DNA from: Clostridia bacterium
Lineage (GTDB): Bacteria > Bacillota > Clostridia > Oscillospirales > Acutalibacteraceae
Direction: 5' to 3'
DNA: 45,714 bases
NCBI GenBank assembly: GCA_017409845.1
Contig: JAFQRY010000009.1
Coordinates: 1 to 45,714, forward strand
Both the position numbers and the translations under genes were made by a program. The first letter of the stretch is position 1. Each line of letters begins with the position of its first letter. The notes beneath the pieces are model-generated. The model had not been told where the DNA came from and made no database searches. It saw only the letters and a program-made list of their open reading frames with translations. Shown here one piece after another: positions 8,842 through 28,958 of this stretch.

Positions 8842-8886
8842 TGCAATTATGGGTTCATTGATAATGGCAAATTCACTGATAACAAT

Positions 8887-9759: not shown

Positions 9760-9833
9760 ATATTACTCTCCTTTAATGTATCTGAAATTTTATTACATTA
9801 TAATACATTTACAACACAAACACAACAAATAAA

Positions 9834-9870
9834 ACTCCCTCTGCCGTTTCCGACAGAGGGAGTCATTTTT
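9834..9870. terminator. Terminator downstream of ppdK
   Basis: Perfect 10-bp stem (9834-9843 with 9854-9863). The minus-strand tail is TTTTATTTG and the plus-strand tail CATTTTTTAG. It begins 6 nt after the stop of the 44-codon ORF, so that ORF is inside the ppdK transcript. Confidence 0.85.
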
Positions 9871-10004
9871 TAGATATAAAGGTTTATTTTGACATCATGC
9901 CAGTGGTTAACACGTTGTTTTTCCGGGTAATGCATCATAACAAACCGCAATGCATGCTCATATCCGATTGTTAACTCGGCAATCTTCAAAGAACCTTTCT
10001 CCAT
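9870..10004 (-). CDS. Candidate 44-aa ORF coupled to ppdK
   Basis: A 44-codon ORF whose ATG overlaps the ppdK stop codon (TGATG), the usual arrangement for translational coupling. The product begins MEKGSLKIAEL, is soluble and mixed in composition, and contains three histidines and aromatic residues (HALRFVMMHYPE). Its stop lies 6 nt before the terminator hairpin. Possibilities are a real small protein, a remnant of a longer gene, or chance. I know of no matching family. Confidence 0.38.
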   Translation of the reverse strand: MEKGSLKIAELTIGYEHALRFVMMHYPEKQRVNHWHDVKINLYI

Positions 10005-12625
10005 CAACCTTTTATTGCTGCCTGTGCTGCTGCGAGGCGAGCGATGGGAACACGGAAGGGTGAGCATGATACATAGTTGAGGCCGATCTTGTGGCAGAAT
10101 TCAACTGATGAGGGATCGCCGCCGTGTTCGCCGCAGATACCGTAGTGGAGGTTCTTGCCGCTTGCCTTACCCTTTGTAACAGCCATATCCATAAGAGCGC
10201 CAACGCCGTTCTGGTCAAGCTTTGCGAAGGGATCGAACTCGAAGATCTTTGTATCATAGTAAGCATTGAGGAACTTACCTGCGTCATCACGGCTGAAGCC
10301 GAATGTCATCTGAGTAAGGTCGTTTGTGCCGAAGCAGAAGAAGTCAGCTTCCTTAGCGATTTCGTCTGCAGTGATGCAAGCTCTGGGGATTTCGATCATT
10401 GTACCAACTTCATACTTGAGGTCAGCACCTGCAGCTGCGATTTCAGCATCAGCAGTCTTAACAACGATATCCTTAACGAACTTGAGCTCCTTAACTTCAC
10501 CAACAAGGGGAATCATGATTTCGGGAACGAGGTTCCAGTCTGCATGAGCCTTCTTAACGTTGATAGCTGCACGGATAACAGCCTTTGTCTGCATTGCAGC
10601 GATTTCGGGATAGGTAACTGTGAGACGGCAGCCTCTGTGACCCATCATGGGGTTGAACTCGTGAAGGCTTGCGATAACAGCCTTGATTTCGTCAACGCTC
10701 TTGCCCTGAGCTGCTGCGAGAGCTGCGATGTCAGCTTCTTCTGTGGGAACGAACTCATGGAGAGGAGGATCGAGGAATCTGATGGTTACGGGGTTGCCTT
10801 CAAGAGCTTCATAGAGAGCTTCGAAGTCGCCCTGCTGATAGGGAAGGATCTTATCAAGAGCAGCTTCTCTTTCAGCAACTGTATCTGCACAGATCATTTC
10901 ACGGAAAGCAGCGATTCTGTCTGCTTCGAAGAACATGTGCTCTGTACGGCAAAGGCCGATACCTTCTGCACCGAGTTCTCTTGCCTTCTTAGCGTCAGCA
11001 GGAGTATCAGCGTTTGTGCGAACCTTGAGGGTTCTGAATTCGTCAGCCCAAGCCATGATTCTGCCGAATTCACCTGCGATTTCAGCGTCAACTGTGGGGA
11101 TGATGCCGTCGTAGATGTTACCGGTTGAGCCGTCGATTGAAATATAGTCACCTTCATTGTAGGTCTTGCCTGCAAGAGTGAACTTCTTGTTTTCTTCGTC
11201 CATGTTGATATCGCCGCAGCCTGATACGCAGCAAGTACCCATACCACGAGCAACAACAGCAGCATGTGAAGTCATACCGCCACGAACTGTGAGGATACCC
11301 TGAGCAGCCTTCATGCCGGTGATATCTTCGGGTGATGTTTCAAGACGAACAAGAACAACCTTTTCGCCTCTTTCGTTCCATTCAACAGCATCTTCAGCTG
11401 TGAATACAACCTTACCGCATGCAGCACCGGGTGATGCGCCGAGACCCTTACCAGCGGGAACAGCAGCCTTGAGAATCTTTGCATCAAACTGAGGATGAAG
11501 GAGAGTGTCAAGGTTTCTGGGGTCGATCATAGCAACAGCCTGCTTCTTGTCGATCATGCCTTCGTCAACGAGGTCACAAGCGATCTTGAGAGCAGCCTTA
11601 GCGGTTCTCTTACCGTTTCTTGTCTGGAGCATATAGAGCTTACCGTCTTCAACGGTGAATTCCATATCCTGCATATCTCTGTAGTGGTCTTCAAGAATAG
11701 CACAAACTTCGTTGAACTGCTTGAAAGCTTCGGGGAACTTTTCAGCCATTTCAGCGATGGGCATGGGAGTACGAACGCCTGCAACAACGTCTTCACCCTG
11801 TGCGTTGGTGAGGAACTCACCCATAAGACCCTTTTCACCTGTAGCGGGGTCACGAGTGAAAGCAACACCGGTACCGCAGTTGTCACCCATGTTGCCGAAT
11901 GCCATCATCTGAACGTTAACAGCTGTACCCCATGAATAGGGAATATCGTTGTCACGACGGTAAACGTTTGCACGGGGGTTGTCCCATGAACGGAAAACAG
12001 CTTCAACAGCACCCATGAGCTGCTCTTTGGGGTCTGTGGGGAAGTCTGAACCGATCTTGTTCTTATATTCAGCCTTGAACTGGCCTGCAAGAGTCTTGAG
12101 GTCTTCAGCGGTAAGGTCAACGTCCTGAGTAACGCCCTTTGCTTCCTTCATCTCGTCGATGAGCTCTTCAAAGTACTTCTTACCAACTTCCATAACAACG
12201 TCGGAATACATCTGAATGAATCTTCTGTAGCAGTCCCAAGCCCAACGGGGGTTGCCGCTCTTTGCTGAGATAGCTTCAACAACTTCTTCATTAAGACCGA
12301 GGTTGAGGATTGTGTCCATCATGCCGGGCATTGATGCACGGGCACCTGAACGAACTGAAACGAGAAGGGGATTTTCCTTATCGCCGAACTTCTTGCCTGT
12401 GATTTCTTCCATCTTAACGATGTATTCCATGATCTGAGCCTGGATTTCATCGTTGATCTTCTTGCCGTCCTCATAATACTTTGTGCAGGCTTCGGTTGAA
12501 ATTGTGAAGCCCTGGGGAACGGGGAGACCGATCTTTGTCATTTCTGCAAGGTTTGCGCCTTTGCCGCCGAGGGTGTTACGCATTGTTGCGTCGCCTTCGG
12601 AGAACAAATAAACATACTTGTACAT
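10004..12625 (-). CDS. ppdK: Pyruvate, phosphate dikinase
   Basis: An 873-aa pyruvate phosphate dikinase, which interconverts pyruvate, ATP and Pi with PEP, AMP and PPi; in anaerobes it serves glycolysis or gluconeogenesis with PPi saving. The N-terminal ATP-grasp domain starts with NTLGGKGANLAEM. The phosphohistidine loop GGMTSHAAVVARGMG places the catalytic His at 454. The C-terminal TIM barrel carries LCRTEHMFF and CGEHGGDP with the catalytic Cys at 831. Length and both catalytic positions fit the clostridial enzyme. GGAGG lies 9 nt before the ATG. Its codon use is strongly biased, as in highly expressed genes, and this creates long open antisense frames that are not genes. Confidence 0.98.
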   Translation of the reverse strand: MYKYVYLFSEGDATMRNTLGGKGANLAEMTKIGLPVPQGFTISTEACTKYYEDGKKINDEIQAQIMEYIVKMEEITGKKFGDKENPLLVSVRSGARASMPGMMDTILNLGLNEEVVEAISAKSGNPRWAWDCYRRFIQMYSDVVMEVGKKYFEELIDEMKEAKGVTQDVDLTAEDLKTLAGQFKAEYKNKIGSDFPTDPKEQLMGAVEAVFRSWDNPRANVYRRDNDIPYSWGTAVNVQMMAFGNMGDNCGTGVAFTRDPATGEKGLMGEFLTNAQGEDVVAGVRTPMPIAEMAEKFPEAFKQFNEVCAILEDHYRDMQDMEFTVEDGKLYMLQTRNGKRTAKAALKIACDLVDEGMIDKKQAVAMIDPRNLDTLLHPQFDAKILKAAVPAGKGLGASPGAACGKVVFTAEDAVEWNERGEKVVLVRLETSPEDITGMKAAQGILTVRGGMTSHAAVVARGMGTCCVSGCGDINMDEENKKFTLAGKTYNEGDYISIDGSTGNIYDGIIPTVDAEIAGEFGRIMAWADEFRTLKVRTNADTPADAKKARELGAEGIGLCRTEHMFFEADRIAAFREMICADTVAEREAALDKILPYQQGDFEALYEALEGNPVTIRFLDPPLHEFVPTEEADIAALAAAQGKSVDEIKAVIASLHEFNPMMGHRGCRLTVTYPEIAAMQTKAVIRAAINVKKAHADWNLVPEIMIPLVGEVKELKFVKDIVVKTADAEIAAAGADLKYEVGTMIEIPRACITADEIAKEADFFCFGTNDLTQMTFGFSRDDAGKFLNAYYDTKIFEFDPFAKLDQNGVGALMDMAVTKGKASGKNLHYGICGEHGGDPSSVEFCHKIGLNYVSCSPFRVPIARLAAAQAAIKG

Positions 12626-12661
12626 TGGAATCTACCTCCATATAAAATAATAAACGTTTTT

Positions 12662-12707
12662 GTGGGCTCTTTCTGCAAGACAGACTGAGCCACTAATGAT
12701 TATAACA
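12662..12707 (-). promoter_or_regulatory. ppdK promoter and leader hairpin
   Basis: On the minus strand an extended -10 (TG-T-TATAAT, 12707-12699) with no good -35. A stem with one bulged G (12662-12669 with 12687-12693) lies in the first part of the leader, with no U-run after it, so it is not an intrinsic terminator. Confidence 0.5.
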
Positions 12708-12789
12708 GATAAAAATATAAATTTCCATATGTTTTTAAGAAAATATACAAGAAATTTACAATTCGTTTTTAGTAACTATTTACATATTG

Positions 12790-13599
12790 TTATTCTGCGG
12801 TCTTTATTCCATAGAAATGGATAACATTCATGTCCTCTTCCATATCAAGACCGTGGGAGCCGCAGCCGCCGTCGATTTCATGGCAGCCGTGGTCGGGGCA
12901 GAAGCCGTAGAATACGCTGTGATTTTTCCACTCACGGTTGATTTTTGCAATAAGCTCAGAATAAAAAGCAATGTTCATTTCAAGAGCGGCAAGGGATTCG
13001 GAGGCTTCGGGTCCATGCTTGTGCATTGTGCCGTCATAGTTGCCGTTATAGATAACTATGAGGTCAAAGCGGTCCTCATCAATGAGGGAAAGAGCCTTTT
13101 CGTTGACCTCCTCAGGTGTATCATATATAAAGTATTCCATATCACGGTCAAGAAAAATCATGGAAATGCTGTCATTTGCCGTCGAAACAATGGCGGCTTT
13201 TTTGCCTGCGTTTGCAAAGCTGTCAAAAATTGTGTTGACGGTCAGCACGGGCTTGGTATACTTCTTTATGCCGTGGATATCGGGCATAACTCCGCTGTAC
13301 ATTGATGCAAAGCATACGGGAGTAACACTCGGCATAACCGAGAGCATGGGCAGGGCAACATCGGAGCAGAGTGCAGCGTCGGCAAACATGGCGGTATACT
13401 TCTGATAAATCCAGAGTGCAACGGCATCGGGATTATAGATAACAACCTTGTCAACGGGCTTTCCGCTGAGCTTTTTTTCTGCAAGTGCGGTCAGTACGGG
13501 ATTGGGTTTTCCGATGCTTTCGGGAATATCAATGCCTGCAATTCCGAGTGCGGATGCCTTGACAGACGAGATGCAGATTGAGCTGTATAAATCGGACAT
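12790..13599 (-). CDS. Alkaline-phosphatase-superfamily phosphodiesterase
   Basis: A 269-aa protein of the type I phosphodiesterase/nucleotide pyrophosphatase branch of the alkaline phosphatase superfamily. The nucleophile region MPSVTPVCFASMYSG (about 104-118) has the catalytic Thr and is followed by the HGI block. Metal ligands come from NYDGTMHKHGP (an Asp and two His) and DHGCHE near the C-terminus. No signal peptide is present, so it is cytosolic. ATG 13599 follows AAAGGTGA; an upstream extension to 13656 has no ribosome site. It faces away from the secreted hydrolase pair. The substrate is unknown; nucleotides or phosphosugars are possible. Confidence 0.8.
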   Translation of the reverse strand: MSDLYSSICISSVKASALGIAGIDIPESIGKPNPVLTALAEKKLSGKPVDKVVIYNPDAVALWIYQKYTAMFADAALCSDVALPMLSVMPSVTPVCFASMYSGVMPDIHGIKKYTKPVLTVNTIFDSFANAGKKAAIVSTANDSISMIFLDRDMEYFIYDTPEEVNEKALSLIDEDRFDLIVIYNGNYDGTMHKHGPEASESLAALEMNIAFYSELIAKINREWKNHSVFYGFCPDHGCHEIDGGCGSHGLDMEEDMNVIHFYGIKTAE

Positions 13600-13718
13600 G
13601 ACTATCACCTTTCTTTTTTCTTTGTCAGATAAAGAATACTCCGATATTGCCGACATGTCAACAGCAGAGTGAAATTGAAAATATTTAATAATTGTTACAT
13701 ATTTATTTTAATATACTG

Positions 13719-13774
13719 TTGAAATCACATAAAATTTGTGATAATATAAGGTGTATATTTGACATTAAGTCAAA
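13719..13774 (+). promoter_or_regulatory. Promoter and small inverted repeat before the hydrolase pair
   Basis: TTGAAA (13719-13724), 17 bp, TAATAT (13742-13747). Downstream, TTGAC and GTCAA form an inverted repeat with a 5-nt centre at 13760-13774, between promoter and ribosome site, a possible operator. Confidence 0.45.
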
Positions 13775-13794
13775 AAAAGGAGAGTGTTTAAAAA

Positions 13795-15669
13795 ATGAAA
13801 AACAGAATCAAAAGAGTAGTTTCTCTTATTCTGTGTGCTGCAATGCTTGTTTCGGCAGGTGCAACAGGTGCACTCGCAGCAACAGAGGACGAATGCGACG
13901 GAAACTGCGGCAGATCGCCCGTTGTTATTCTTCCCGGCATCAACCATTCACCCACATATCTTTACAATGAAGACAACACCCCTTATCTCGATGCTGACGG
14001 CAACGAGGTTGGCGGAACTCTTCTTATCCTTGAGCTCAGCAAGCTCTGGGGTACTCTTCCCAAGCTTATCGTAAGCCTTCTCACAACCCTCACTCTTCAG
14101 ATTCCCATCGGTCTTGAAGATGCTGCCTATGAAGCTGCAAGTGCTGCTTTCTGGGTTCAGAAGTGTGATAACGACGGTAACCACATCAACAACCTTCAGA
14201 CAAAGAGATGGAATCATCCCATTTCCGAAATGAATGAAGATGATAAGGATTGGCTCTACACAATGATTCCCCTTCAGGCAGTTGAAAAGGAAATCGGCGG
14301 CGATCATATCTATATGTTCACCTTCAATCTTGTCGGTGATCCCATGCAGTCGGCAAAAGAGCTTGATGCATATATTGATATGGTCAGAGAGCAGACAGGT
14401 CACGATAAGGTTACTCTTCTTCCCGTTTCTCTCGGCGGCACAATCCTTACCGCATATCTTGACGAATACGGTCACGGCAAGGTTGACGAAATCGTTAATG
14501 CCGTTGCATGTCTTGACGGTACCGATATCGTTGCAGATATGATGGAAAGAAAATGGAACCTTACCGATGAATTCCTTTATCACGAATTTATCCCTCCCAT
14601 TCTCGGCGATGATGCTGCACTCGGCTATCTTATCAACACTGTTCTCCACATCATTCCCAGAGCAGGTGTTGAGGCTATTCTCAGAGGTGCAATCAGCGGC
14701 GTTCTTGACACAATGATGCTCAATTGTCCCCAGATCTGGGCAATGATTCCTTCCTACAGATACGATGCAATTGCTGAAAAATATCTCAGCAATGCACCCG
14801 AAAAGGCAAAGCTCAAGGAAAAGACAGACCGCTTCCAGCAGGCAAGACTCAATCTCAAGCAGAATGTTCTTGATGCTGTTGCAGACGGCGTTAAGGTTAA
14901 TTCAATTGCAGGTGCAAACCTTGCATTCGGTGAGCAGGACTACACCTTCTTCGGCATCGTTGCTTCCGCTCACGATTATAACACCGACGGTATCATCAAT
15001 CTTTCATCAACAACCCTCGGTGCAACAGGTGCTCCCGCAGGCAAGACACTTGATGATATCGCATACAAGCAGGAATCATACGGCAAGAAGTATTGCCTTG
15101 ACAGTGCCCACAACCATATTTCTCCCGACAGAAAGGTTGACGTTTCAACTGCAATTCTTCCCGAAAATACATGGATTTTCCTTGATCAGCATCACGAAGT
15201 AGGTAACAATGACGTTGTTCTCAACCTTGTCAAGGCTATCCTTGCAGGTGATGTTTCGGATGTTAACGATGATCCCGAAAACTATCCTCAGTTCAACTAC
15301 AGCTGCAACACCAAGTACATCCGCCGCTGGAGACTTCCCGATGCAAGAGAGCTTCTTGAAAAGGATGCAAAGGGAGAAATTGTTCTTCCCGAAGAAGATA
15401 AGAAGGAGCTTGAAGAAGCAATCAAGGACGGCGAAGCTGTTATCAACGCAACTGTTGTTGATGAAGAAAAGTTCAAGGCTGCAGAAGACAGACTCAATGC
15501 AATTCTTGCAAAATATGACCTTTATACCTACCCCGAAGAGCCCTCAAAGTTTGACATTTTCCTCAATGATTCAATGATGAATCTTAGCAAATTCCTTGTC
15601 GGCTGGCTCGGCGGCGGAAACCTTATCGACTGGATATTCTCACCCATCACAAATCTTTTCAAAAAATAA
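13795..15669 (+). CDS. Secreted alpha/beta hydrolase, lipase-like (copy 1)
   Basis: A 624-aa secreted protein. Residues 1-28 form a signal peptide ending ALA. After a CDGNC segment comes PVVILPGIN (42-50), the oxyanion-hole strand of lipases. The nucleophile elbow is LLPVSLGGT with Ser212, a P-x-S-x-G form of the usual G-x-S-x-G. HNHISPDR and DQHHE are the blocks shared with copy 2 that may hold the catalytic His. Residues 520-575 form a charged helical segment, and the end (FLVGWLGG to NLFKK) is hydrophobic. It probably cleaves esters outside the cell or at its surface. AAAGGAGAG precedes the ATG. Copy 2 follows 18 nt downstream. Confidence 0.72.
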   Translation: MKNRIKRVVSLILCAAMLVSAGATGALAATEDECDGNCGRSPVVILPGINHSPTYLYNEDNTPYLDADGNEVGGTLLILELSKLWGTLPKLIVSLLTTLTLQIPIGLEDAAYEAASAAFWVQKCDNDGNHINNLQTKRWNHPISEMNEDDKDWLYTMIPLQAVEKEIGGDHIYMFTFNLVGDPMQSAKELDAYIDMVREQTGHDKVTLLPVSLGGTILTAYLDEYGHGKVDEIVNAVACLDGTDIVADMMERKWNLTDEFLYHEFIPPILGDDAALGYLINTVLHIIPRAGVEAILRGAISGVLDTMMLNCPQIWAMIPSYRYDAIAEKYLSNAPEKAKLKEKTDRFQQARLNLKQNVLDAVADGVKVNSIAGANLAFGEQDYTFFGIVASAHDYNTDGIINLSSTTLGATGAPAGKTLDDIAYKQESYGKKYCLDSAHNHISPDRKVDVSTAILPENTWIFLDQHHEVGNNDVVLNLVKAILAGDVSDVNDDPENYPQFNYSCNTKYIRRWRLPDARELLEKDAKGEIVLPEEDKKELEEAIKDGEAVINATVVDEEKFKAAEDRLNAILAKYDLYTYPEEPSKFDIFLNDSMMNLSKFLVGWLGGGNLIDWIFSPITNLFKK

Positions 15670-18992: not shown

Positions 18993-21900
18993 ATGAAAAA
19001 AATCATAAAAAGGATATTGATATCAGCCGTCATTGCGGCGATGACCGTTACCGCCATGCCGCTTGCGGGTGTGGATTTCAGGGATATATTTACCGTTGCA
19101 GGTGCATACGATATCAAAACCTATGTGTGCGATGACTTTGAATATGCGATATATCATAACGATAACAATGAAAGCACAGCGTGGATTTTTGATTATCACG
19201 GCAGCGAAAAAAATCTTGTTATTCCCGAAACGCTTGACGGTAACATAGTTGAGCTTATAAATCAAAGCTGCTTTGAGGATAATCAGACCCTTGAAAGTGT
19301 TTATCTGCCCGACACTCTGGAGGCAATATGGGAGGCTGCTTTCAGAAATTGCAAAAATCTTAAAACCGTCAGATTTCCCGAAACCGATGTTGCTCTTGAC
19401 CATTCCTGCTTTTACGGCTGTGAAAGTCTGGAGGAGGTGACAATAAACCTTGACTACACGGATGAATGGGTCTGGGGTGTCGGAGAAGCGGTTTTTGCAA
19501 ACAGCGGTGTTAAAAAAATCAATCTTGTCGGAGAAATCACCACCTTCCCTGAAGGGTTGCTTGACGGAACCTTGGTTGAAGAAATCGAAATGCCCGAAAA
19601 CATCACAGCCATTCATAAGGACGCATTTAAATACAGCATATGTGAAACCGTAAAAATAAAAGGTGTTATCAATCCGAAAGAGCCCAGTAGCTGGGCAGAT
19701 AACAATACCGAAAACGGACAGATTGATAAAATAATTTATTATCAGCCGCCTGCAAGATCGGGTGACAGCAATTACTATTTCAGCAGATATGACAGTGAAA
19801 ACAACTATTGGATTTGCGAATATTTTGTCGGCTACGAGGATGATGAAATCAGATATATTGATGACGGATATTTCCGCTACGGTATAAAAGAAAACGGAGA
19901 AGCACTCCTCTGGGAATACACGGGTGAAGAAACGGAATTATTTATTCCTTCGGAAACCTGCGAAGGGAATCCCGTTGTTGCAATTTTTGACGAAACCTTC
20001 AGAGGCAATAAAACGCTGAAAAAGGTTGTTATTCCGCCGTCGGTAAGAACAATCGGCACAGATGCATTCAGAGCCTGCACGGCACTTGAAGAAATTATCA
20101 TTCCCGATTCGGTTGAAATCATCGGAGATGAAGCGTTTATCGGATGCACAAGCCTTAAAAGTGTTGATTATCCGCCTCTGGATTATATTCCGATAGGTGC
20201 GTTCTCGAGATGCTCGTCGCTTACTGAATTTGTTGTTCCCGAAACGGTTAAGGCAATCGGTGCCTATGCCTTCGGCAGCTGCACTTCGCTTTCATGCGTG
20301 ACACTTAACGAAGGCTTGAAACAAATCGGCTACAGCGCTTTCAGCAAAGCACGCGTCGGTGCAAATAATTCCGAACCCTGTATAACGGAGCTTGTTTTAC
20401 CCGAAAGCCTTGAATACATAGGCGACTATGTGTTCAGAAGTCTGCCTCTTAATGAAATATCAATTCCCTCGGGAGTCAAAAAAATCGGCGATTATGCTTT
20501 CTCGGATACCGATATATCAAAGGTTACTCTGAATGAAGGTCTTGAAAAAATCGGCAGTAACGCATTCAGCTACTGCGGAAATCTTGAAGCAATAGATTTG
20601 CCCGATACGGTTAATTATATCGGCAGCTATGCTTTTTGTGATTGTGCAAAAATAAAAAGCGTTGAAATTCCTCCGCTTGTTACGGAAATATGTCGGGGTG
20701 CTTTTCTGGGTCTTGACGGAATGAAAAGCGTAACAGTTCCTTCAACAGTTAAAATAATCGGCATGGATGCGTTTGCCGACTGCGAAAATCTTACAGATAT
20801 AGTAATTGAAAACGGTGTTGAAGAAATAGGCGACCTGGCGTTTGACTACTGTATGGCAAAGGAACTGACAATTCCCGAAAGCGTAAAAATAATCGGCAAG
20901 GAAATAATCGGCAATTCTCTGACTGAAACCGTTTGTTTTAATGCTTCCGATATTTCGGACAGCAGTCAGTATCGTGGCAGCCCGGGAACAAATGCAAAGT
21001 CGGTAATGGGTTCAAATCTGAAGCTGAAGAAAATCGTATTCGGCGAAAATGTCAAAAATGTTCCTTCGTATTTTTGCTTCAAAGCAGAAACGCTTGAAGA
21101 AATTGTGTTTTCCGACAGCATTGAGAGAATCGGACCCTATGCATTCAGAGAGTGCACCGCCATCACCTCGATTGATTTACCGCGAAGCCTGAAATCATTG
21201 AACGGCGAAACGTTTTACGGCTGCCGTTCTTTGACAGAGATAACAATTCCCGAAAGCCTTGAAAGCATGTATTCGCATGATTTTACGGGCTGCAGTAAAA
21301 TAACAACAATCAATTTCAATGCTGCAAGCTGCGAATTCAGAAATCTCGAAGCAACCGTAACAGACGGAATATATTATTCTCCGTTTTTTGCTCTCGGCAA
21401 GCTTGAAAGCATCAACCTTGGCGAAAACATAAAAGAGCTTCCCGCATATCTTTTCTGCGGCATAGAAACGATTGATGAAATCATTCTTCCGTCAACGATT
21501 ACGGATGTGGGTGTGGGCTCATTTGCATTCAGCAGTATCACAAGCTTCAAAGCTTCCGATAACCTTGAAAGCATTGAAGAATATGCGTTCTATGGCTGTA
21601 AAAATCTTGAATCCGCAGATTTGGGAAATAACATTATGCTTCTCGGTGCCGATGCATTCGCAGGTTGTGAAAAGCTGACGGAAATTTATATTCCCGACAC
21701 CGTAACCATCATTGAAATGGATGCGTTCAAGAATTGCTCCGCACTCCACACCGTTCGCATGTCGCCGAATGTTGATTATATTCCCCGTGAAGCGTTCTAC
21801 AACTGTAAAGAGCTTTCAACTTTCACTTGGAATGCAGAAAGCAAGCTTGTAGGCAGACTTGCATTCGGCAACTGCATCAAGCTCACAGACTTTGATTTCC

Positions 21901-22787
21901 TCAATGTTGAAAAACTCTATGTCAACAGCTTCCTCGGCAGCGGCGTGAATGTAGTTCAGCTTGGTGAAACTGAAAACGAAGCAAGCCGTACTCCGCTGAC
22001 AACAGTTGAAGTTCAGAGTTTTATGGATTGCGAAAATCTTGCAACTCTCGGTATCGGCGGTAATGTTACAACAATCAAAACTCAGGCATTTGCAAACTGC
22101 GAAAACCTTGAAACCGCAGTTATTGCAGACAGTGTTACCGAAATTGCGGATGATGCCTTTGACGGCTGCGACAGCCTGACAATCTATTGCTCAGAGGGCT
22201 CATATGCTTATTCTTATGCCAGGGCTCAGGGAATAAGGGTCAGCACCTTTGTTATTGCTCCCATTCCCAATCAGACCTACACGGGCTTTGAAATCAGACC
22301 GGATGTGGCGGTATCTCTTTCGGGTGAAGCACTCGATAAAAATATTGATTTCGGCGTGAGCTATGCAAATAACATCAATGTCGGCAATGCAGATGTTACG
22401 GTTAAGGGCAAGGGCGATTTCAGGATGTTCGCAAGCAAAGCGATGTTCACAATCGTCACAAAGAATATTTCCGCTGCGACCGTTGCACCAATTGCAGAAC
22501 AGGTTTATACGGGTTCTTCCGTTACTCCCGCTGTTACGGTGACAGACGGAATAAAAATTCTCCGTGAGGGGACGGATTATACCGTGGCATATTCAAATAA
22601 TACAAACGAAGGCACGGCAACCGCAAAAATCATGGGTATCGGCAATTATTCGGGCAGCATATCCGCAGAATTCGTGATATCAAAAGAAGCGGAGCCCCCG
22701 CAGACAAATCTTTTTACAAGAATACTTGAATTTTTCTCGGGCTTTTTCAGGGATATCGTTTCGTTTATTTACGGTATTTTTAATTGA
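18993..22787 (+). CDS. Secreted BspA-type LRR_5 surface protein
   Basis: A 1264-aa secreted protein. Residues 1-37 form a signal peptide. Most of the protein is leucine-rich repeats of the LRR_5/BspA (Treponema pallidum) type, seen as repeated I-P-x-S-V-x-x-I-G-x-x-A-F-x-x-C units. Near the C-terminus are two beta-sandwich repeats, each with a YTG...NN.N.G pattern and GxGxF or GNYSG. The end is a 25-residue aromatic, amphipathic tail (FFSGFFRDIVSF). There is no LPXTG or visible sortase signal. Such proteins bind host or plant glycans and proteins. It is paralogous to the LRR protein at 37585. GGGAGG precedes the ATG, and its promoter matches that of the ECF operon. Confidence 0.88.
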   Translation: MKKIIKRILISAVIAAMTVTAMPLAGVDFRDIFTVAGAYDIKTYVCDDFEYAIYHNDNNESTAWIFDYHGSEKNLVIPETLDGNIVELINQSCFEDNQTLESVYLPDTLEAIWEAAFRNCKNLKTVRFPETDVALDHSCFYGCESLEEVTINLDYTDEWVWGVGEAVFANSGVKKINLVGEITTFPEGLLDGTLVEEIEMPENITAIHKDAFKYSICETVKIKGVINPKEPSSWADNNTENGQIDKIIYYQPPARSGDSNYYFSRYDSENNYWICEYFVGYEDDEIRYIDDGYFRYGIKENGEALLWEYTGEETELFIPSETCEGNPVVAIFDETFRGNKTLKKVVIPPSVRTIGTDAFRACTALEEIIIPDSVEIIGDEAFIGCTSLKSVDYPPLDYIPIGAFSRCSSLTEFVVPETVKAIGAYAFGSCTSLSCVTLNEGLKQIGYSAFSKARVGANNSEPCITELVLPESLEYIGDYVFRSLPLNEISIPSGVKKIGDYAFSDTDISKVTLNEGLEKIGSNAFSYCGNLEAIDLPDTVNYIGSYAFCDCAKIKSVEIPPLVTEICRGAFLGLDGMKSVTVPSTVKIIGMDAFADCENLTDIVIENGVEEIGDLAFDYCMAKELTIPESVKIIGKEIIGNSLTETVCFNASDISDSSQYRGSPGTNAKSVMGSNLKLKKIVFGENVKNVPSYFCFKAETLEEIVFSDSIERIGPYAFRECTAITSIDLPRSLKSLNGETFYGCRSLTEITIPESLESMYSHDFTGCSKITTINFNAASCEFRNLEATVTDGIYYSPFFALGKLESINLGENIKELPAYLFCGIETIDEIILPSTITDVGVGSFAFSSITSFKASDNLESIEEYAFYGCKNLESADLGNNIMLLGADAFAGCEKLTEIYIPDTVTIIEMDAFKNCSALHTVRMSPNVDYIPREAFYNCKELSTFTWNAESKLVGRLAFGNCIKLTDFDFLNVEKLYVNSFLGSGVNVVQLGETENEASRTPLTTVEVQSFMDCENLATLGIGGNVTTIKTQAFANCENLETAVIADSVTEIADDAFDGCDSLTIYCSEGSYAYSYARAQGIRVSTFVIAPIPNQTYTGFEIRPDVAVSLSGEALDKNIDFGVSYANNINVGNADVTVKGKGDFRMFASKAMFTIVTKNISAATVAPIAEQVYTGSSVTPAVTVTDGIKILREGTDYTVAYSNNTNEGTATAKIMGIGNYSGSISAEFVISKEAEPPQTNLFTRILEFFSGFFRDIVSFIYGIFN

Positions 22788-22873: not shown

Positions 22874-22902
22874 TTGAAAAAGCAATACACATTTGATATA
22901 AT
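22874..22902 (+). promoter_or_regulatory. Sigma-A-type promoter of the reductase operon
   Basis: TTGAAA (22874-22879), exact 17-bp spacer, perfect TATAAT (22897-22902), 32 bp before the first start codon. Confidence 0.8.
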
Positions 22903-22934: not shown

Positions 22935-23702
22935 TTGAAAAATGATGCAACAATAATTGCCCTTTCAGGCAAGGGCGGAGTGGGCAAAACCTCAATTTCC
23001 GCCGCAATAGTCAAGCTGCTTGTGCAGGCTTATCCCGATAAAAAAATTCTTGCAATTGATGCTGACCCTGCGGTCGGTCTTTCAACCGCACTCGGCATTG
23101 ACGTTAAAATGACAATCGACGATATCCGCAAGGAAATCGTTGAAACCGTTGAGGACGGTCAGACGAGGGCTGCAATCGAGCTTCTGGGCGATGCAAGATA
23201 CAAGATTTTTGATGCACTTGTTGAAACAGACGGCTTTGCGTTCATCGCTGTCGGCAGACCCGAAAGTGCGGGCTGCTACTGCAAAATCAACTCCTATCTC
23301 AAAGAGGTTATCAGCATTCTTTCAAACGAATTTGATTTTGTTGTTATCGACGGTGAGGCGGGAATTGAGCAGATTAACCGCCGCGTTATGGAAAAGGTTA
23401 CCCATCTTCTGCTTATCACGGATGCAAGCAAAAAGGGCACTCAGGTTATTTCAACCATCAAGAGTGTTGCCGATGAGCTTGTGATGTATAAAAAAATCGG
23501 TGCGATAGTCAACAGAATTCCCGATGAAAGTGTTATTGAGCATATAGACACAAACGGAATTCCCGTTTTGTCATATATTCCCACGGATTCAAACCTTGCG
23601 ATTTATGACATTGAAGGAAAAAACATAACAAAGCTTCCCGATGATTCAAATGTTGTTGAGGGAGTTAAAAAGGCTCTTGTTGAATTGGAGATTTTGAAAT
23701 GA
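22935..23702 (+). CDS. CooC-like metal-centre maturation ATPase
   Basis: A 255-aa SIMIBI-class ATPase related to CooC, which helps insert nickel into carbon monoxide dehydrogenase, and to AcsF. The deviant Walker A GKGGVGKT is at 12-19, IDADP at 41-45, and the switch/Walker B FDFVVIDGEAG at about 133-143. GCYCKIN supplies the C-x-C pair (Cys114, Cys116) by which CooC dimers bind metal. No CODH gene is in the window; instead it heads an operon of dehydratase-type Fe-S proteins. The start is a TTG with GGGAG 9 nt upstream. It overlaps the next gene by 4 nt (ATGA). Its likely role is metal-cluster assembly or charging for the operon's enzyme. Confidence 0.8.
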   Translation: MKNDATIIALSGKGGVGKTSISAAIVKLLVQAYPDKKILAIDADPAVGLSTALGIDVKMTIDDIRKEIVETVEDGQTRAAIELLGDARYKIFDALVETDGFAFIAVGRPESAGCYCKINSYLKEVISILSNEFDFVVIDGEAGIEQINRRVMEKVTHLLLITDASKKGTQVISTIKSVADELVMYKKIGAIVNRIPDESVIEHIDTNGIPVLSYIPTDSNLAIYDIEGKNITKLPDDSNVVEGVKKALVELEILK

Positions 23703-24904
23703 GAGATTTGAAGCATCTTTATGAGTTTGAAAAGCTTCTTCAGGAAGCGAATAATGAGCTTGTTCAGAAGGCGAAGGCGGACGGCGGAATAGCTCTCGGC
23801 TACACCTGCTATCATATTCCCGAGGTTCTTCTCAACTGCGGCAACTGCTTTTCTGTAAGACTCCGTGCACCGAGAACGGGCTCAATGGATATTGCTACTT
23901 ATTACATGAGCAATTTCCTCTGCGGCTTTTCAAAAGCGATTCTGGAGCGTGCCATTGAGGGCGGATATAATTTCCTTGATGCACTTCTTGCGAGCGAAAC
24001 CTGCTCCGAAATGAACAGAACAGCCGAGCATTTTGAATTGCTTAATCTTGTTGAGAACGACAAATTCTTCCTGACATTTCTTGACATGCCGTTCAAGATT
24101 GCAGACCACACGGTGAAGCATTATGTTACTCAGACAAGGAACAAAATTCTCAACAAAATGACAGAGGTTTACGGCATTGACACTTCGGATGCCGCACTTC
24201 TCAAAGCGGTTGAGGAGCATAACGAGGTCTGCCGTCTTATGACGGAAATCGGCAATTACCGCAAGGAGGATAATCCGAGAATAACGGGCTATGAATACCA
24301 TATTCTCAGCCTTATTACATATTGTTGCCCGAAATCGCTTATTCTTCCCATGCTCCGTGAAACGGCGGAGGAGCTTAAAACCCGTGAGCTCGATGAAAAG
24401 AAGAATTTCAGGGCAAAAATCGTTGTTGTCGGCTCGGAGATGGATGACCCCGACTTCACCGCACTTATCGAAGACAGCGGTGCTCTTGTTGTTGCCGACA
24501 GATATTGCTTCGGCACGATGCCGGGCAGAGAAGAAATAAAAATCAATCCCGATGAGGATGTTCTCACTCAGATTTGTCTGCACTATCTCAAAACAAGTCA
24601 GTGCCCCCGATACATGAGCCATGAAAAGGTTCAGGAGAGAAGGGATTATGTCAGGCATCTTGTTGACGAATATCATGCAGACGGTGTTATGTATGAGCAG
24701 CTCAAATTCTGCGAATACTGGGGCTACGAAAGAGCTCTTGCGTCATATGTTATGAGCAATGATTACGGAGTGCCCACCGCTGCGGTTGACCGACAGTATA
24801 CTGCCTCGGCATCCGGTCAGCTCCGCACAAGGGTTCAGGCTTTTGTTGAAAGCCTTGAAATAAAGAAAATCCAGAAGGAAAGGAAGGCGAAGGAAAATGG
24901 CTGA
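23699..24904 (+). CDS. 2-hydroxyacyl-CoA dehydratase-type Fe-S subunit (HgdB-like)
   Basis: A 401-aa member of the 2-hydroxyacyl-CoA dehydratase D-component family (HgdB/FldC/BzdN, including double-cubane cluster proteins). The N-terminal signature GYTCYHIPEVLLNCGN contains Cys37, and Cys102 (ASETCSE) and Cys338 (KFCEYWGYE) are placed like the three cluster ligands of the family. The Fe-S cluster receives electrons from the ATP-driven activator encoded downstream. It overlaps CooC by 4 nt and the next subunit by 8 nt. No CoA-transferase or amino-acid pathway gene is nearby, so a classical dehydratase role is not supported by context. Confidence 0.8.
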   Translation: MRDLKHLYEFEKLLQEANNELVQKAKADGGIALGYTCYHIPEVLLNCGNCFSVRLRAPRTGSMDIATYYMSNFLCGFSKAILERAIEGGYNFLDALLASETCSEMNRTAEHFELLNLVENDKFFLTFLDMPFKIADHTVKHYVTQTRNKILNKMTEVYGIDTSDAALLKAVEEHNEVCRLMTEIGNYRKEDNPRITGYEYHILSLITYCCPKSLILPMLRETAEELKTRELDEKKNFRAKIVVVGSEMDDPDFTALIEDSGALVVADRYCFGTMPGREEIKINPDEDVLTQICLHYLKTSQCPRYMSHEKVQERRDYVRHLVDEYHADGVMYEQLKFCEYWGYERALASYVMSNDYGVPTAAVDRQYTASASGQLRTRVQAFVESLEIKKIQKERKAKENG

Positions 24905-26429
24905 TCTCGGCAAGCTCTATTCAGAAGACCGCAAGGCTGTTCTTAAACACAGAGAATGGCGCGGCTTCAGGGATACGATGTATGATTATTACCGCTGGCT
25001 TGTAACGTGGAAAGACATGATAGTCATGGTGCTTAAAGCACCGGTATCAACCGTTAAGGGTCTGTGGCGTTACCGCTGGATGGCATCATATCTTTCAACT
25101 CCTTCGTTTATTGACAGACACACCGCAGGCTTAAGGGGAACACACCTGCGTATCGTTCACCTTCACTTCAACATGATAGTAAAGCATGCAACGGGGCTTA
25201 TTCACACCTCGTTTGTTGCAGACGAAAAGATAAATCCGAAAAACAAGCTTTCAAAGAAAATTGTTCTTACCGATGAAATCATACCCAACGAGATTTTTTC
25301 GGGCTTCCCCAACCTGACGGTCATTCCGCTGCAGACCATCCCCATTTTCCTCACCTCAATGGTTGACCAGCAGATAACTCCGCCCTATCTTGAGGTTACG
25401 GAAAGCTTCGGTGTGCCTGCCGATGTGTGCCCTCTTCCGAGTGCGGAGGCAGGTGTTGCAATTGAGGATGATTACCCGAAAATGGGCTGCTGCATGGTTG
25501 CAACGAATATGCCCTGCGACGGCTCGGTTATGAATTCAACCTTCCTCGACCGCCGCCTTAACCTTCCCGTTCATCTTTTCAACATTCCGCTCCGCTACAA
25601 TGATGAGGATGTTCAGGAATATGCGGTTGAAGAGGTTAAGGAGCTTATTAAATTCATCGAAGAGCAGACGGGCGAAAAGTTTGACTGGGATGTTTTCTTT
25701 GAAGCTCTTAAAAATTCAAACAAGCAGCTCGGATATGAGATGGAAAAATGGGATATCAACAAAACCGACTGCCCGCAGATGACGGGTGCTGCCTTCTGGC
25801 TTTACAGAATCTATTATTTCAATCTTTCGGGCGGCGTTGACAAGCGTTTCCTCAAGGTTGATAAAAAGGTCAACAAGCTGATGCTCAAGGGCTACGAGAA
25901 AAAAGAGCCCGTTTCAAAGGAAATGCGTCACCGTGCTGTTGTTTGGAGCTGCCCCGCAAACTATTACACAAGCTTTGCAAACTGGCTTGAAAACTGCTGG
26001 GGCATGAATGTTGTTATGGATATGGAAACCATGATTTCCTATATCAGATATAATACTGAAGATAAGGAGCAGGCTCTTAAGGACGTTGCAAAAACCTATC
26101 AGCGTTCGATTATGCGTAAGCACACAAAGGGCGGCTACAGAAACGTTGTTGACGAGCTCTGGAGAATAGTTGAGGAATATGATGCCGATACGGTCATCAT
26201 GTATGACCAGATTTCGTGCAAGGGCATGGACGGACTTGCAGGCATTTTTGATGATCAGGCAAGAGAACGCAATATCAACTTCATCTGGGTCAAGCAGGAC
26301 CTTATGGACCCGAGAACGATTTCAAGAAGAGACATGCGTGAGCAGGTCAACAAATATATGCAGACAGTTCTTCAGGAGGAGCCTCTTGACCCCTCACTTG
26401 TTGATTTTGAAGATGATCTGGCATGGTAA
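24897..26429 (+). CDS. 2-hydroxyacyl-CoA dehydratase-type second subunit (HgdA-like)
   Basis: A 510-aa protein of the same superfamily, longer and more diverged than the preceding subunit. Possible cluster ligands are in ADVCPLPSAEAG (Cys178), KMGCCM (Cys198, Cys199), NMPCDGS (Cys207) and DQISCKGMDG near residue 440. Blocks such as ANYYTSFANWLENCWG are typical of the second Rossmann-like half. Residues 33-60 contain an extra amphipathic or hydrophobic segment (DMIVMVLKAP) not usual in HgdA. It probably forms a heterodimer with the 401-aa protein. A 16-nt gap with AAAGGAG leads to the activator gene. Confidence 0.75.
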   Translation: MADLGKLYSEDRKAVLKHREWRGFRDTMYDYYRWLVTWKDMIVMVLKAPVSTVKGLWRYRWMASYLSTPSFIDRHTAGLRGTHLRIVHLHFNMIVKHATGLIHTSFVADEKINPKNKLSKKIVLTDEIIPNEIFSGFPNLTVIPLQTIPIFLTSMVDQQITPPYLEVTESFGVPADVCPLPSAEAGVAIEDDYPKMGCCMVATNMPCDGSVMNSTFLDRRLNLPVHLFNIPLRYNDEDVQEYAVEEVKELIKFIEEQTGEKFDWDVFFEALKNSNKQLGYEMEKWDINKTDCPQMTGAAFWLYRIYYFNLSGGVDKRFLKVDKKVNKLMLKGYEKKEPVSKEMRHRAVVWSCPANYYTSFANWLENCWGMNVVMDMETMISYIRYNTEDKEQALKDVAKTYQRSIMRKHTKGGYRNVVDELWRIVEEYDADTVIMYDQISCKGMDGLAGIFDDQARERNINFIWVKQDLMDPRTISRRDMREQVNKYMQTVLQEEPLDPSLVDFEDDLAW

Positions 26430-26445
26430 AGGAGATTGAATAACT

Positions 26446-27240
26446 ATGAAATATTTCGGCGGATGTGACGTAGGCTCAACCTATACAAAATGCGTTATTC
26501 TTGACGAAAACGGAAAGATGGTAGCCAATGTCACAAACAGAAGCAAGATAAATCCCGTTGCAAGTGCTGAAATCGCTCTGGGTGATGCGGTTGCACAGGT
26601 CAGCGGACTCAATTCGGCTGAGGAGCTCAGCTATCTTATCGGCACGGGCTATGGCAGAAACAAGGTTCCCTTTGCGGATGAAAACATTTCGGAAATCAGC
26701 TGCCATGCAATGGGCGTTCATGTTACGAATCCCGAGGTCAAGGCAATTATTGATATCGGCGGTCAGGATGTAAAGGGTATTTCAATCGACACCGACGGTA
26801 CGGTCAAAAACTTTGCAATGAACGATAAATGTGCTGCGGGCACGGGCAGATTTTACGAGGCTATGGCAAATGCGTTTGAAATGACTCTCCCCGAGTTTTC
26901 AAAGCTTTCGCTCAATGCAAAGAATACAATTCCCATCACCGCTCAGTGCACCGTTTTTGCCGAGAGCGAGGTTATTTCTCTTGTCGGCGAAGGAAAGCCC
27001 ATGGATGAAATCGCCGCAGGAATCCAGCTTGCCGTTGCAAAGCGCTGCTTTGTTATGGCGAAAAAAGCAGGTGCAACCGACAGCATAACCCTCACGGGCG
27101 GCTGTGCAAAGAATGACGGACTCAAAAAGGCAATCGAGAAGGTTCTCAAAATCAAGGTTTTTGAGCTTTCAACCGACCCTCAGCTCATGGGTGCTCTCGG
27201 TGCGGCGGAATATGCCCGTCAGAAAGGTCTGGCGAAGTAA
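26446..27240 (+). CDS. Acyl-CoA dehydratase activase, BadF/BcrA/HgdC ATPase
   Basis: A 264-aa ASKHA-fold ATPase of the HgdC type. A homodimer holds one [4Fe-4S] cluster and uses ATP hydrolysis to push an electron to its partner at very low potential. Landmarks: GCDVGSTYTK (phosphate-1, residues 6-15), IDIGGQDVK (102-110), DKCAAGTGRF (Cys129) and AQCTVFAESEV (Cys168); these two Cys are the cluster ligands. GGCAKNDGL is the adenosine motif. The size is normal for HgdC. AAAGGAG precedes the ATG. The next ATG follows its stop codon directly. Confidence 0.9.
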   Translation: MKYFGGCDVGSTYTKCVILDENGKMVANVTNRSKINPVASAEIALGDAVAQVSGLNSAEELSYLIGTGYGRNKVPFADENISEISCHAMGVHVTNPEVKAIIDIGGQDVKGISIDTDGTVKNFAMNDKCAAGTGRFYEAMANAFEMTLPEFSKLSLNAKNTIPITAQCTVFAESEVISLVGEGKPMDEIAAGIQLAVAKRCFVMAKKAGATDSITLTGGCAKNDGLKKAIEKVLKIKVFELSTDPQLMGALGAAEYARQKGLAK

Positions 27241-27396
27241 ATGGAAGTATTATTTATAATTCTCGGCGTTATTCTTGCTCTTTTCGTGATAACCTTCACA
27301 ATCTATTTTTTCAATATGGATATGAAGCTTATCCGCAAGGTATATGACCTTCTCGGCAAGCATTACGACACCATGAAAAGGGATAAAAAGCTCTGA
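27241..27396 (+). CDS. 51-aa single-pass membrane protein in the reductase operon
   Basis: A 51-codon ORF directly abutting the activase stop codon (TAA then ATG) and overlapping the next gene as TGATG. Residues 3-24 are one strongly hydrophobic helix (VLFIILGVILALFVITF); residues 27-51 are basic and amphipathic, with KLIRKVYDLLGKHYD. It is the tight packing, with no room on either side, that makes it convincing. It may anchor or couple the soluble Fe-S proteins to the membrane, or link them to a membrane redox donor. I do not recognise a family. Confidence 0.72.
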   Translation: MEVLFIILGVILALFVITFTIYFFNMDMKLIRKVYDLLGKHYDTMKRDKKL

Positions 27397-28082
27397 TGAA
27401 ATTTTTTGATTCTCTTGTTGCGGAGCTTGACGGAATTACGGCTCCGCTTGAAAAAAAGTCATGTTCCGTTGGTAACGCATGGAAAGATGCGGGCTCAAAT
27501 CAGGTTATAATGAAGCGGGATACCGCATTTGAGCTTGACGGAGTCGGCTTCAATCTTATAACCGCTGAAAAAACAGCCGATGAAATCGTTGTTATCGGCG
27601 ATGACCTCGGAAAAATAAATACAGACGGCGGTTTCGCACGAATTGCGGTTATCGAAATTGAAGATAACGGGGATGAGCAGGCGGCATACAAGCTTATTAA
27701 AAAAATTGAGTATGTCAAATACCATTGCTTCCCCGACGGCTATATGTCGAGAAGCACCTCCCGTTCACACAAAGAGGCTGTCAGAGTTTCAAAAAAGGCG
27801 GTTGCAGACGGAATAAGTTTTCAATCTGTCGGCTCGCTTCTGATTAAAAAATACAAAGAAATACCCGAGGTCAGGGGAGTAAGGCTTATATTTATAACCG
27901 ATCCCCGTGCAAATTTCGGAAAAATCGAAAAGCTTGCAATAAAAAACCGTGAAATCACCGAAACCCTCAACCATGTAATGAACAGCATCAATTTCGATTG
28001 CGATACCTGCAATCTGAAAGCGATATGCGATGAGGTTGAGGGGATGAAAGAGCTTCATTTCAAAAATTCGGAAAACGGCTGA
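27396..28082 (+). CDS. Acetyl-CoA synthase (AcsB/CdhC) beta-domain-like protein
   Basis: A 228-aa protein resembling a middle part of the CO dehydrogenase/acetyl-CoA synthase beta subunit. Matching blocks in order: DEIVVIGDDLGKI (62-74), GGFARIAVIEI (78-88), EAVRVSKKAVADGI (127-140), a YKEIPEV to LIFITDP run (153-170), and the C-terminal C-D-T-C-N-L-K-A-I-C-D-E-V-E-G-M run (Cys202, Cys205, Cys211). The full enzymes are 470-730 aa, so this is a reduced form. It could bind a metal through the three Cys. The CooC-like first gene fits a nickel or CODH/ACS-related theme. It overlaps the 51-aa gene by TGATG. Confidence 0.58.
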   Translation: MKFFDSLVAELDGITAPLEKKSCSVGNAWKDAGSNQVIMKRDTAFELDGVGFNLITAEKTADEIVVIGDDLGKINTDGGFARIAVIEIEDNGDEQAAYKLIKKIEYVKYHCFPDGYMSRSTSRSHKEAVRVSKKAVADGISFQSVGSLLIKKYKEIPEVRGVRLIFITDPRANFGKIEKLAIKNREITETLNHVMNSINFDCDTCNLKAICDEVEGMKELHFKNSENG

Positions 28083-28142: not shown

Positions 28143-28547
28143 TTATATTGTTATTGTAATATCCAATGCCGTGATAATCGAAATATACAGCATGCCGAGA
28201 ATCAAAAAGATTACATACGCGGCAAGAACATACAAAATAACTTTTTTCGCAATTTTGCCGTCATCAATCTTTTTTACCGGATTTCCGCAGCCCGTGCAGA
28301 AGTTTTCGGCGTTGCGTATTTTTGCTCCGCACGATCCGCACTTCAGACGGGCAATTTTTATGCGGATGACTATGTAAACGGGAAGAGCATAAAAATTGAA
28401 CAGCAGCACCATGACCGCCCAGATCCACGCCTTCATTTTGTGACGGTATGCGTCAATGAAAACTATGGCAGCGAGAATCACGGTCATAGCAATAAAGCAA
28501 ATCCATGCTATGCCGCCCGTTATCATTCCGACAAGCATTGCTCCCAT
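28143..28547 (-). CDS. Membrane protein with zinc ribbon (copy B)
   Basis: A 134-aa membrane protein: two hydrophobic helices (about 8-30 and 40-62), a cytosolic zinc ribbon (CGSCGAKI, then CTGCGNPV, four Cys), and a third helix region (about 103-128). It is the last gene of a minus-strand series, its ATG directly after the stop of copy A, and GGAGG for it lies inside copy A. Copies A and B share the order helices, C-x2-C...C-x2-C, helix. Function unknown. Confidence 0.7.
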   Translation of the reverse strand: MGAMLVGMITGGIAWICFIAMTVILAAIVFIDAYRHKMKAWIWAVMVLLFNFYALPVYIVIRIKIARLKCGSCGAKIRNAENFCTGCGNPVKKIDDGKIAKKVILYVLAAYVIFLILGMLYISIITALDITITI

Positions 28548-28958
28548 TTATATTCCTCCCTGATAACTGTAATAAACGGCGGCAATCAGCATGCCGACAC
28601 GCGCAAGAATATATACGGCAACAAGTGCGATGCAGATGTCGATTATTGTTTTTGCAACCATGCCGAGCCTTGGTCTTACGCTGTCAAGCTCAACTCCGCA
28701 GGAGGTGCAGAATTTTGCTTTTGCAGGAGTATCTGCCAGACATGCGGGGCATTTTTTGTTGAAATAAATTTTCCGTGCAATAAGGTAGGCGATAAGTCCG
28801 GGTATATTCAGCACAGCACCGATGACAGTCCACAAAAGAGGATTCATCCTGCGTTTTTTCGAGTCTTTATAAACATAAAAACCGATAATAACCGAAAGCA
28901 CCGCAAGCACGAACAGTGAGGCAAGGTATATGAAAATTGATACCAGCATTGTAAACAT
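28548..28958 (-). CDS. Membrane protein with zinc ribbon (copy A)
   Basis: A 136-aa paralogue of the following gene: helices at about 5-28 and 42-62, zinc ribbon CPACLADT and CTSCGVEL, and a final helix at about 100-128. It begins 6 nt after the MFS transporter stop codon and is presumably co-transcribed with it. Zinc-ribbon membrane proteins of this size are common in Clostridia and uncharacterised. Confidence 0.7.
   Translation of the reverse strand: MFTMLVSIFIYLASLFVLAVLSVIIGFYVYKDSKKRRMNPLLWTVIGAVLNIPGLIAYLIARKIYFNKKCPACLADTPAKAKFCTSCGVELDSVRPRLGMVAKTIIDICIALVAVYILARVGMLIAAVYYSYQGGI

Follow-up and report, generated by a model that had tools for sequence, protein, structure and literature searches.

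The stretch analysed here (the window) comprises 45,714 nucleotides, positions 1 to 45,714 of contig JAFQRY010000009.1 of an anaerobic, gut-type Clostridia bacterium (GCA_017409845.1), or C3:1-45714 of a 2.53-Mb genome assembled in 35 contigs and 95.8% complete. It carries six tightly packed open reading frames (ORFs) on the plus strand, 22935..28082, named A to F in gene order (Table 1), which a reading made from the sequence alone had joined into one operon linking a dehydratase-type reductase with two proteins of carbon monoxide dehydrogenase/acetyl-CoA synthase (CODH/ACS) type. All six ORFs lie at the positions given in that sequence-only reading, and the proposed junctions are as described: ATGA between A and B (a 4-nt overlap), an 8-nt overlap between B and C, a 16-nt gap before D, no spacing between D and E, and TGATG joining E and F. 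The repetition of gene set and order in other genomes argues that this grouping is not due to chance. The sigma-A-type promoter proposed upstream stood only in part: the TTGAAA-17-TATAAT site exists, has a TG ahead of the second hexamer and ranks at the top of 11 such sites in the region, but it is a consensus match and no proof of a promoter, shuffled sequence yielding 8.5 sites on average.

Table 1. The six-gene operon of the window, its promoter-like site and the divergent locus L226 of another class
Feature	Position	Strand	Basis or remark
Promoter-like site TTGAAA-17 nt-TATAAT	22874..22902	+	11/12 consensus matches; consensus match only
A: CooC-type ATPase, 255 aa, GKGGVGKT and C114-x-C116	22935..23702	+	TTG start; CooC1 3kje 1.8e-16
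B: HGD-D subunit, 401 aa, Cys C37 C75 C102 C270 C302 C338	23699..24904	+	Pfam HGD-D, BzdN ligand alignment
C: HGD-D subunit, 510 aa, C178 C207 C441, N-terminal extension ~1-80	24897..26429	+	Pfam, alignments, predicted fold
D: BadF/HgdC-type activase, 264 aa, C129 and C168	26446..27240	+	NCBIfam CoA_E_activ
E: 51-aa peptide, one hydrophobic stretch, invariant D27 and K29	27241..27396	+	Hydropathy, alignment
F: ACS middle-domain protein, 228 aa, C-terminal C202-x2-C205-x5-C211	27396..28082	+	Pfam CdhC, predicted fold
L226: B-C-D-D'-F-A, two activases	G559:C8:30000-48000, 8599-14221		BzdNOPQ-like reductase with CooC/ACS-like pair

The centre of the operon is a pair of HGD-D proteins. As anticipated for two HgdA/B-like subunits, B and C score 302 and 163 bits with Pfam HGD-D (cut-off 28.4), and a fold search with the predicted structure of C agrees with this superfamily. 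In an alignment to the BzdN ligand list of PMC11971306, the six double-cubane positions of B are occupied by cysteines in 63/63 rows, while the three cysteines of C, kept in 72/72 rows, match those of the [4Fe-4S]-OH2 cluster of a BzdO-like subunit; row counts here and below include the seeds and omit short or truncated ORFs. Given these conserved ligands and the chemistry of the superfamily, B would hold an [8Fe-9S] double cubane and C a [4Fe-4S] cluster. The earlier suggestion of a metalloenzyme with nickel or a double cubane is thus backed in part, by the complete cysteine set of B, with nickel staying a conjecture. Among NCBIfam models, double_cubane fits both proteins best, yet they reach only 140.8 (B) and 61.5 (C) against its cut-off of 350. 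Benzoyl-CoA reductase equivalogs (B, 101.9 vs 453.8 for BzdN; C, 24.8 vs 486.55 for benz_CoA_red_B) and Had dehydratase equivalogs (B, 84.5 vs 700; C, 26.7 vs 750) likewise stay below their cut-offs. The structure 7yyl, of a double-cubane cluster protein (DCCP), matches B at 2.6e-27. C additionally has a conserved N-terminal extension of about 80 residues, for which fold searches gave no match; this does not indicate a new fold. Both HGD-D matches of the window genome are the B and C of this operon.

Flanking this pair are the activase and the membrane peptide that had been predicted. D scores 214 bits with CoA_E_activ (cut-off 125.4) and keeps C129 and C168, which we take to be the cluster-binding cysteines, in 65/65 rows. 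E is hydrophobic over a single stretch, hydropathy peaking at 3.09 in the 19-residue span that starts at residue 3, and its D27 and K29 are invariant in 93/93 rows.

The two ends of the operon carry the CODH/ACS-like proteins. The closest solved structure of A is CooC1 (Table 1), consistent with the proposed CooC-like ATPase with its CxC pair, the second-ranking match in the PDB being of MinD type (5e-8); A has a deviant Walker motif, and its CxC is kept in 61/61 rows. Its sequence is ~36% identical (up to 119 bits) to GCYC-type CooC-like proteins encoded beside acsB in other genomes, and less alike, at 23-28% identity, to the GCVC type. Like the nickel-insertion ATPases CooC and AcsF, then, A combines a Walker motif and a CxC pair; unlike them, it sits in an operon without a CODH or ACS client, F being its sole ACS-like neighbour.

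F, described beforehand as a reduced AcsB/CdhC-like domain, matches Pfam CdhC at 26.0 bits (cut-off 24.0), and the structural similarity on which that description hinged is present in the prediction: residues 24-195 adopt the fold of the ACS middle domain. Directly after this domain, the alignment places a CxxC...C in register with the A-cluster motif, and these three C-terminal cysteines are kept in 85/85 rows (the fold alignments comprise 54 rows of F and 30 of C). F therefore shares with AcsB/CdhC the middle domain and the start of the A-cluster cysteine motif, but differs in its length of 228 aa and in lacking the N-terminal domain, the fourth cysteine and the CGC domain. The full A-cluster ligand set of four cysteines plus CGC is hence absent from F, which has three cysteines only, whereas CxxCx8Cx9C and the CGC nickel motif are found in 25/26 AcsB rows, the 26th being a 537-aa partial ORF.

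For the distribution of the system, 84,980 species genomes were scanned with a pattern that includes C211 of F. Of the 303 relatives returned, the analysis was confined to the best 80; with four loci from class-search genomes and the window itself this gave 85 loci, all located through F. The neighbourhood proved to be conserved, the order A-B-C-D-E-F recurring in 51 of the 58 loci with at least 5.2 kb of upstream sequence; the other seven read A-F in four cases and F, BCEDEF and EF (L089) in a single case each. Seven loci altogether are of the A-F kind (L046, L047, L049, L051, L052, L064 and L068), which suggests that A and F form a unit of their own. In samples of the class, F was found together with C: a sensitive F query matched 5/291 genomes of the class, C being present in 5/5, and in a class sample of 391 the seven genomes with full-length C (>590 bits) are the same seven in which F was found. 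Five of these were recovered through Pfam CdhC (one below cut-off) and G184 and G202 through the sensitive query; as the sample was screened with Pfam CdhC only, which misses the F of those two, some of its remaining genomes may have F without C. True AcsB occurs in two of the seven. In a phylum sample, F was found in 2/398 genomes; a further 60 gave matches, but solely to long ORFs (at least 396 aa, <47 bits) that we took as AcsB. C is present in 9/37 genomes of the window's genus and, apart from one 17-bit match, in 0/23 genomes from other families of the same order. No CODH gene had been seen in the window, and none was matched in its whole genome; among 12 F-bearing genomes searched, CODH was matched in three and went unmatched in nine, that of the window included, although some of these may be incomplete.

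Certain genomes have multiplied the reductase part of the system. Twelve genomes with F contain 6 to 15 HGD-D matches each; these were not a random choice, ten having been selected for A-F or for F standing apart or at contig edges and two as Butyrivibrio. Around their HGD-D matches, 39 of 40 stretches include a C-family gene, the exception (L145) being an ordinary dehydratase-like pair, while six other genomes have 1, 1, 1, 1, 2 and 3 full-length copies of C. E follows the module in 86 of the 89 modules with room for it (L141 included by inspection) and is absent from L117, L123 and L146. In contrast, F is single-copy in 18/18 genomes, the one extra match, in G184, being a 738-aa AcsB; the only CdhC-type match in the window genome is F itself. 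Full-length D was found in 12/18 genomes with F. It is partial in G302 (217-residue pieces); G291, G295, G297 and G301 gave only small fragments of it, most of them where contigs end, and G293 was the one genome of the 18 searched to give no D. Pieces of D at contig ends, seen in G292, G294, G297, G301 and G302, suggest that several near-identical copies of D break the assemblies. In some genomes several B-C-E modules would share one F and probably few D. Across three loci in which D is 76-94% identical to that of the window, C is 45-47% identical (91% in the closest) and F 28-59%.

An instructive outlier is locus L226 of G559, a genome of another class, where an acyl-CoA dehydrogenase-like gene is followed by B, a C-like protein, D, D', F and A. 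Although identity is down to 19-42%, every one of B, C, D, D', A and F retains its ligand cysteines there; F has lost R82 and H221, and the two activases recall BzdPQ. The presence of A, F and a reductase together at so divergent a locus suggests that the A-F pair accompanies such reductases beyond the family of the window.

Genes within three positions of 107 distinct modules were counted for clues to the substrate. The usual dehydratase context, noted earlier as absent from the window, did not turn up among the families searched, 0/107 modules having a match to a CaiB-type CoA-transferase (one seed; other CoA-transferase families lay outside the search) or an AMP-ligase motif. HtpG (Hsp90-like) stands near 21/107 modules, and in 12 loci (L048, L050, L053, L063, L066, L073, L075, L078, L080, L084, L093 and L143) it was seen mostly between the B-C-E module and A. 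Flavoproteins resembling old yellow enzyme (OYE) or BaiCD flank 11/107 modules; against the bilirubin reductase model (cut-off 750), the OYE-like protein reached no more than 364 bits. IsrA-like plus HypA genes lie near 4/107 modules (L058, L130, L144 and L154), and by eye also directly downstream of F in L228 (11224-14518), the IsrA-like label resting on a GltD-like plus ferredoxin make-up and the adjoining HypA. By eye, too, ferredoxin-, AOR-, MoaD- and ADH-like genes precede the operon in L227 (624-4580), and AOR- and MoaD-like pieces occur in L012 (1-660), both loci belonging to family f58 and having an NtrC-like regulator. In the window itself, a 1,264-aa protein with many leucine-rich-like repeats (BspA-type, by eye) is encoded directly upstream (18993-22787), and just downstream, on the minus strand (28143-28958), two adjoining genes encode small proteins of membrane type; both have CxxC pairs that look like zinc ribbons, and by eye the two resemble each other.

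Several leads were discarded. LysR regulators beside modules looked promising at first, but LysR flanks 3/107 only; the isoprene reductase isr operon was set aside, IsrA-like plus HypA genes accompanying 4/107 modules. The mercury-methylation and Sao selenoprotein systems (Haft and Gwadz 2023) differ in the gene list given in the available part of a review, and the mlp clusters of Kountz and Balskus, to judge from the portion available, contain corrinoid methyltransferases and another gene set. A plasmalogen or lipid substrate is hinted at only by E and the extension of C, and no further support was found.

Among known systems, class I benzoyl-CoA reductase (BzdNOPQ/MbdONPQ) shares with the operon a heterodimer of HGD-D folds, the six double-cubane and three [4Fe-4S] cysteines split over the subunits, and a BadF-type activase. 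The operon differs in having one activase gene rather than two (L226 excepted), in the N-terminal extension of C, in the additional E, A and F, and in the lack of an AMP-ligase motif near its modules; moreover, BzdO has Cys128 and His131 (PMC11971306), whereas C has a serine three residues after C207. DCCP and its reductase likewise combine double-cubane cysteines, as in B, with an activase, and DCCP is a close solved relative, yet it is a one-gene homodimer, C lacks three of the six cysteines, and B remains at 141 bits against the cut-off of 350. (R)-2-hydroxyisocaproyl-CoA dehydratase HadBC has the same folds and activase type; B differs by its full double-cubane ligand set, by scores far under the family cut-offs and by the absence of a CaiB-type CoA-transferase match nearby. 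Anaerobic plasmalogen synthase PlsA is an HGD-type plus activase-type reductase acting on a membrane lipid, in one ~1,400-aa fusion protein; the proteins of the operon are separate. Large activase-type ORFs of 1,410-1,449 aa, which we take to be PlsA-like in size and candidates only, occur in G184, G202, G223, G299, G300, G308 and G325, and such an ORF was also noted at G000:C13:55868-57571 (973 aa in the window genome); separate weak HGD-D matches lie in ORFs of 1,419 aa in G300 and 1,431 aa in G299. In the parts of the open-licence PMC literature covered by our search, which left subscription papers aside, no description was found of a gene set with a CooC-type ATPase, a truncated ACS domain, a membrane peptide and modular expansion. 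The reductase core is thus of a known kind, and its combination with A, F, E and modular expansion is apparently undescribed.

We propose that the six genes specify an ATP-driven reductase that is associated with the membrane and belongs to the benzoyl-CoA-reductase/double-cubane superfamily, together with a metal-loading pair that serves it, and give this reading about an even chance (0.5). It builds on what is demonstrated: the genes and their order and co-occurrence, the folds predicted for C and F, and the conserved ligand cysteines; what we say of clusters, electron flow, membrane location, metal, the role of F and the kind of substrate is meant as a model. A dimer of D would receive electrons from reduced ferredoxin and, driven by ATP hydrolysis, push them singly into the double cubane of B, which would store them before passing them on to C; at the open coordination site of its [4Fe-4S] cluster, C may then reduce an unsaturated or oxygenated organic substrate. 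This chain from ferredoxin through D and B to C follows from established superfamily chemistry and the conserved ligands. E and the N-terminal extension of C would keep the enzyme at the membrane. A would load a metal, nickel or iron, onto F with its ACS middle domain and shortened A-cluster motif, a step suggested by protein family, adjacency and single copy, and the loaded F may mature or prime B-C, one F serving multiple B-C-E modules that presumably have different substrates.

A number of observations weigh against this proposal. BzdNO made in E. coli contains a double cubane in its structure (PMC11971306), so that a dedicated maturase is seemingly not generally needed. The low identity of F beside that of D is odd for a shared partner, and since C211 belongs to the locus-finding pattern its conservation is partly selected, C202 and C205 lying outside it. 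That A is nearer to the GCYC than to the GCVC type makes the analogy with ACS maturation loose. D is absent or fragmentary in 6/18 genomes; G559 has F, yet no C-family match was found there; and with no constant substrate gene across the 107 modules, no single substrate emerges.

The main rival makes F an electron carrier: A would load a metal cluster onto the three cysteines of F, and this cluster would act between ferredoxin and D or between D and B-C. Three invariant cysteines placed right behind the ACS middle domain speak for such a role, and one F per genome, even with several B-C pairs, is compatible with it. To our knowledge, known activases accept electrons from ferredoxin or flavodoxin without an F-type partner, however; the three-cysteine site appears truncated rather than ferredoxin-like, and A comes from a metal-insertion family, which leaves the carrier role a minority possibility. 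About as probable is a more novel reading: F as a new minimal A-cluster protein, the CooC-type A loading nickel or another metal onto its [4Fe-4S]-type CxxCx5C site. F would then supply or complete a heterometal site in a Birch-type reductase tethered to the membrane, or would add to its reducing power, and through exchangeable B-C-E modules this reductase would let gut Clostridia reduce many organic compounds that need no CoA activation.

Other explanations concern the enzyme itself. B-C could be a DCCP-like reducer of small molecules of the acetylene, azide or hydrazine type, serving stress protection and no organic substrates, as the 7yyl match and the double_cubane model might indicate; since both monomers of the DCCP homodimer carry a double cubane (PMC11971306), while C keeps three cysteines only, and since module expansion and OYE- or IsrA-like neighbours better fit diverse organic substrates, we consider this improbable. 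An ordinary (R)-2-hydroxyacyl-CoA dehydratase (HAD) of amino-acid fermentation, to which A and F would be unrelated and mere passengers, is more improbable again. Such an operon was rejected as a candidate on its cysteine set, family cut-offs and neighbours: both double cubanes are lost in HAD enzymes (PMC11971306), whereas B has all six ligands, the Had models score far too low, the CaiB-type seed and the AMP-ligase motif drew a blank at the modules, and A and F are conserved together with B-C. Least probable of all is a catalytic F, a miniature ACS handling CO, methyl or acyl groups with B-C; its fold and the start of the A-cluster motif would suit this, but F has neither a fourth cysteine for the cluster nor the CGC nickel motif, and most of the F genomes searched gave no CODH match.

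Reductases of the double-cubane and benzoyl-CoA types rank with the most powerful reductants in biology, and for only a few of them is the substrate known (PMC11971306). The six-gene system is conserved, some gut and rumen Clostridia have several of its B-C-E modules, and the B and C of the window lie below every named-family cut-off; it would thus represent a large group of these enzymes that is still unexplored. Where genomes without CODH reuse the ACS middle domain alongside a CooC-type ATPase, a role of nickel, or of a maturation pair, in this chemistry becomes directly testable, and the reuse bears on how ACS may have been assembled from parts. If the minimal A-cluster idea were true, it would join carbon-monoxide enzymology with benzoyl-CoA-reductase chemistry.

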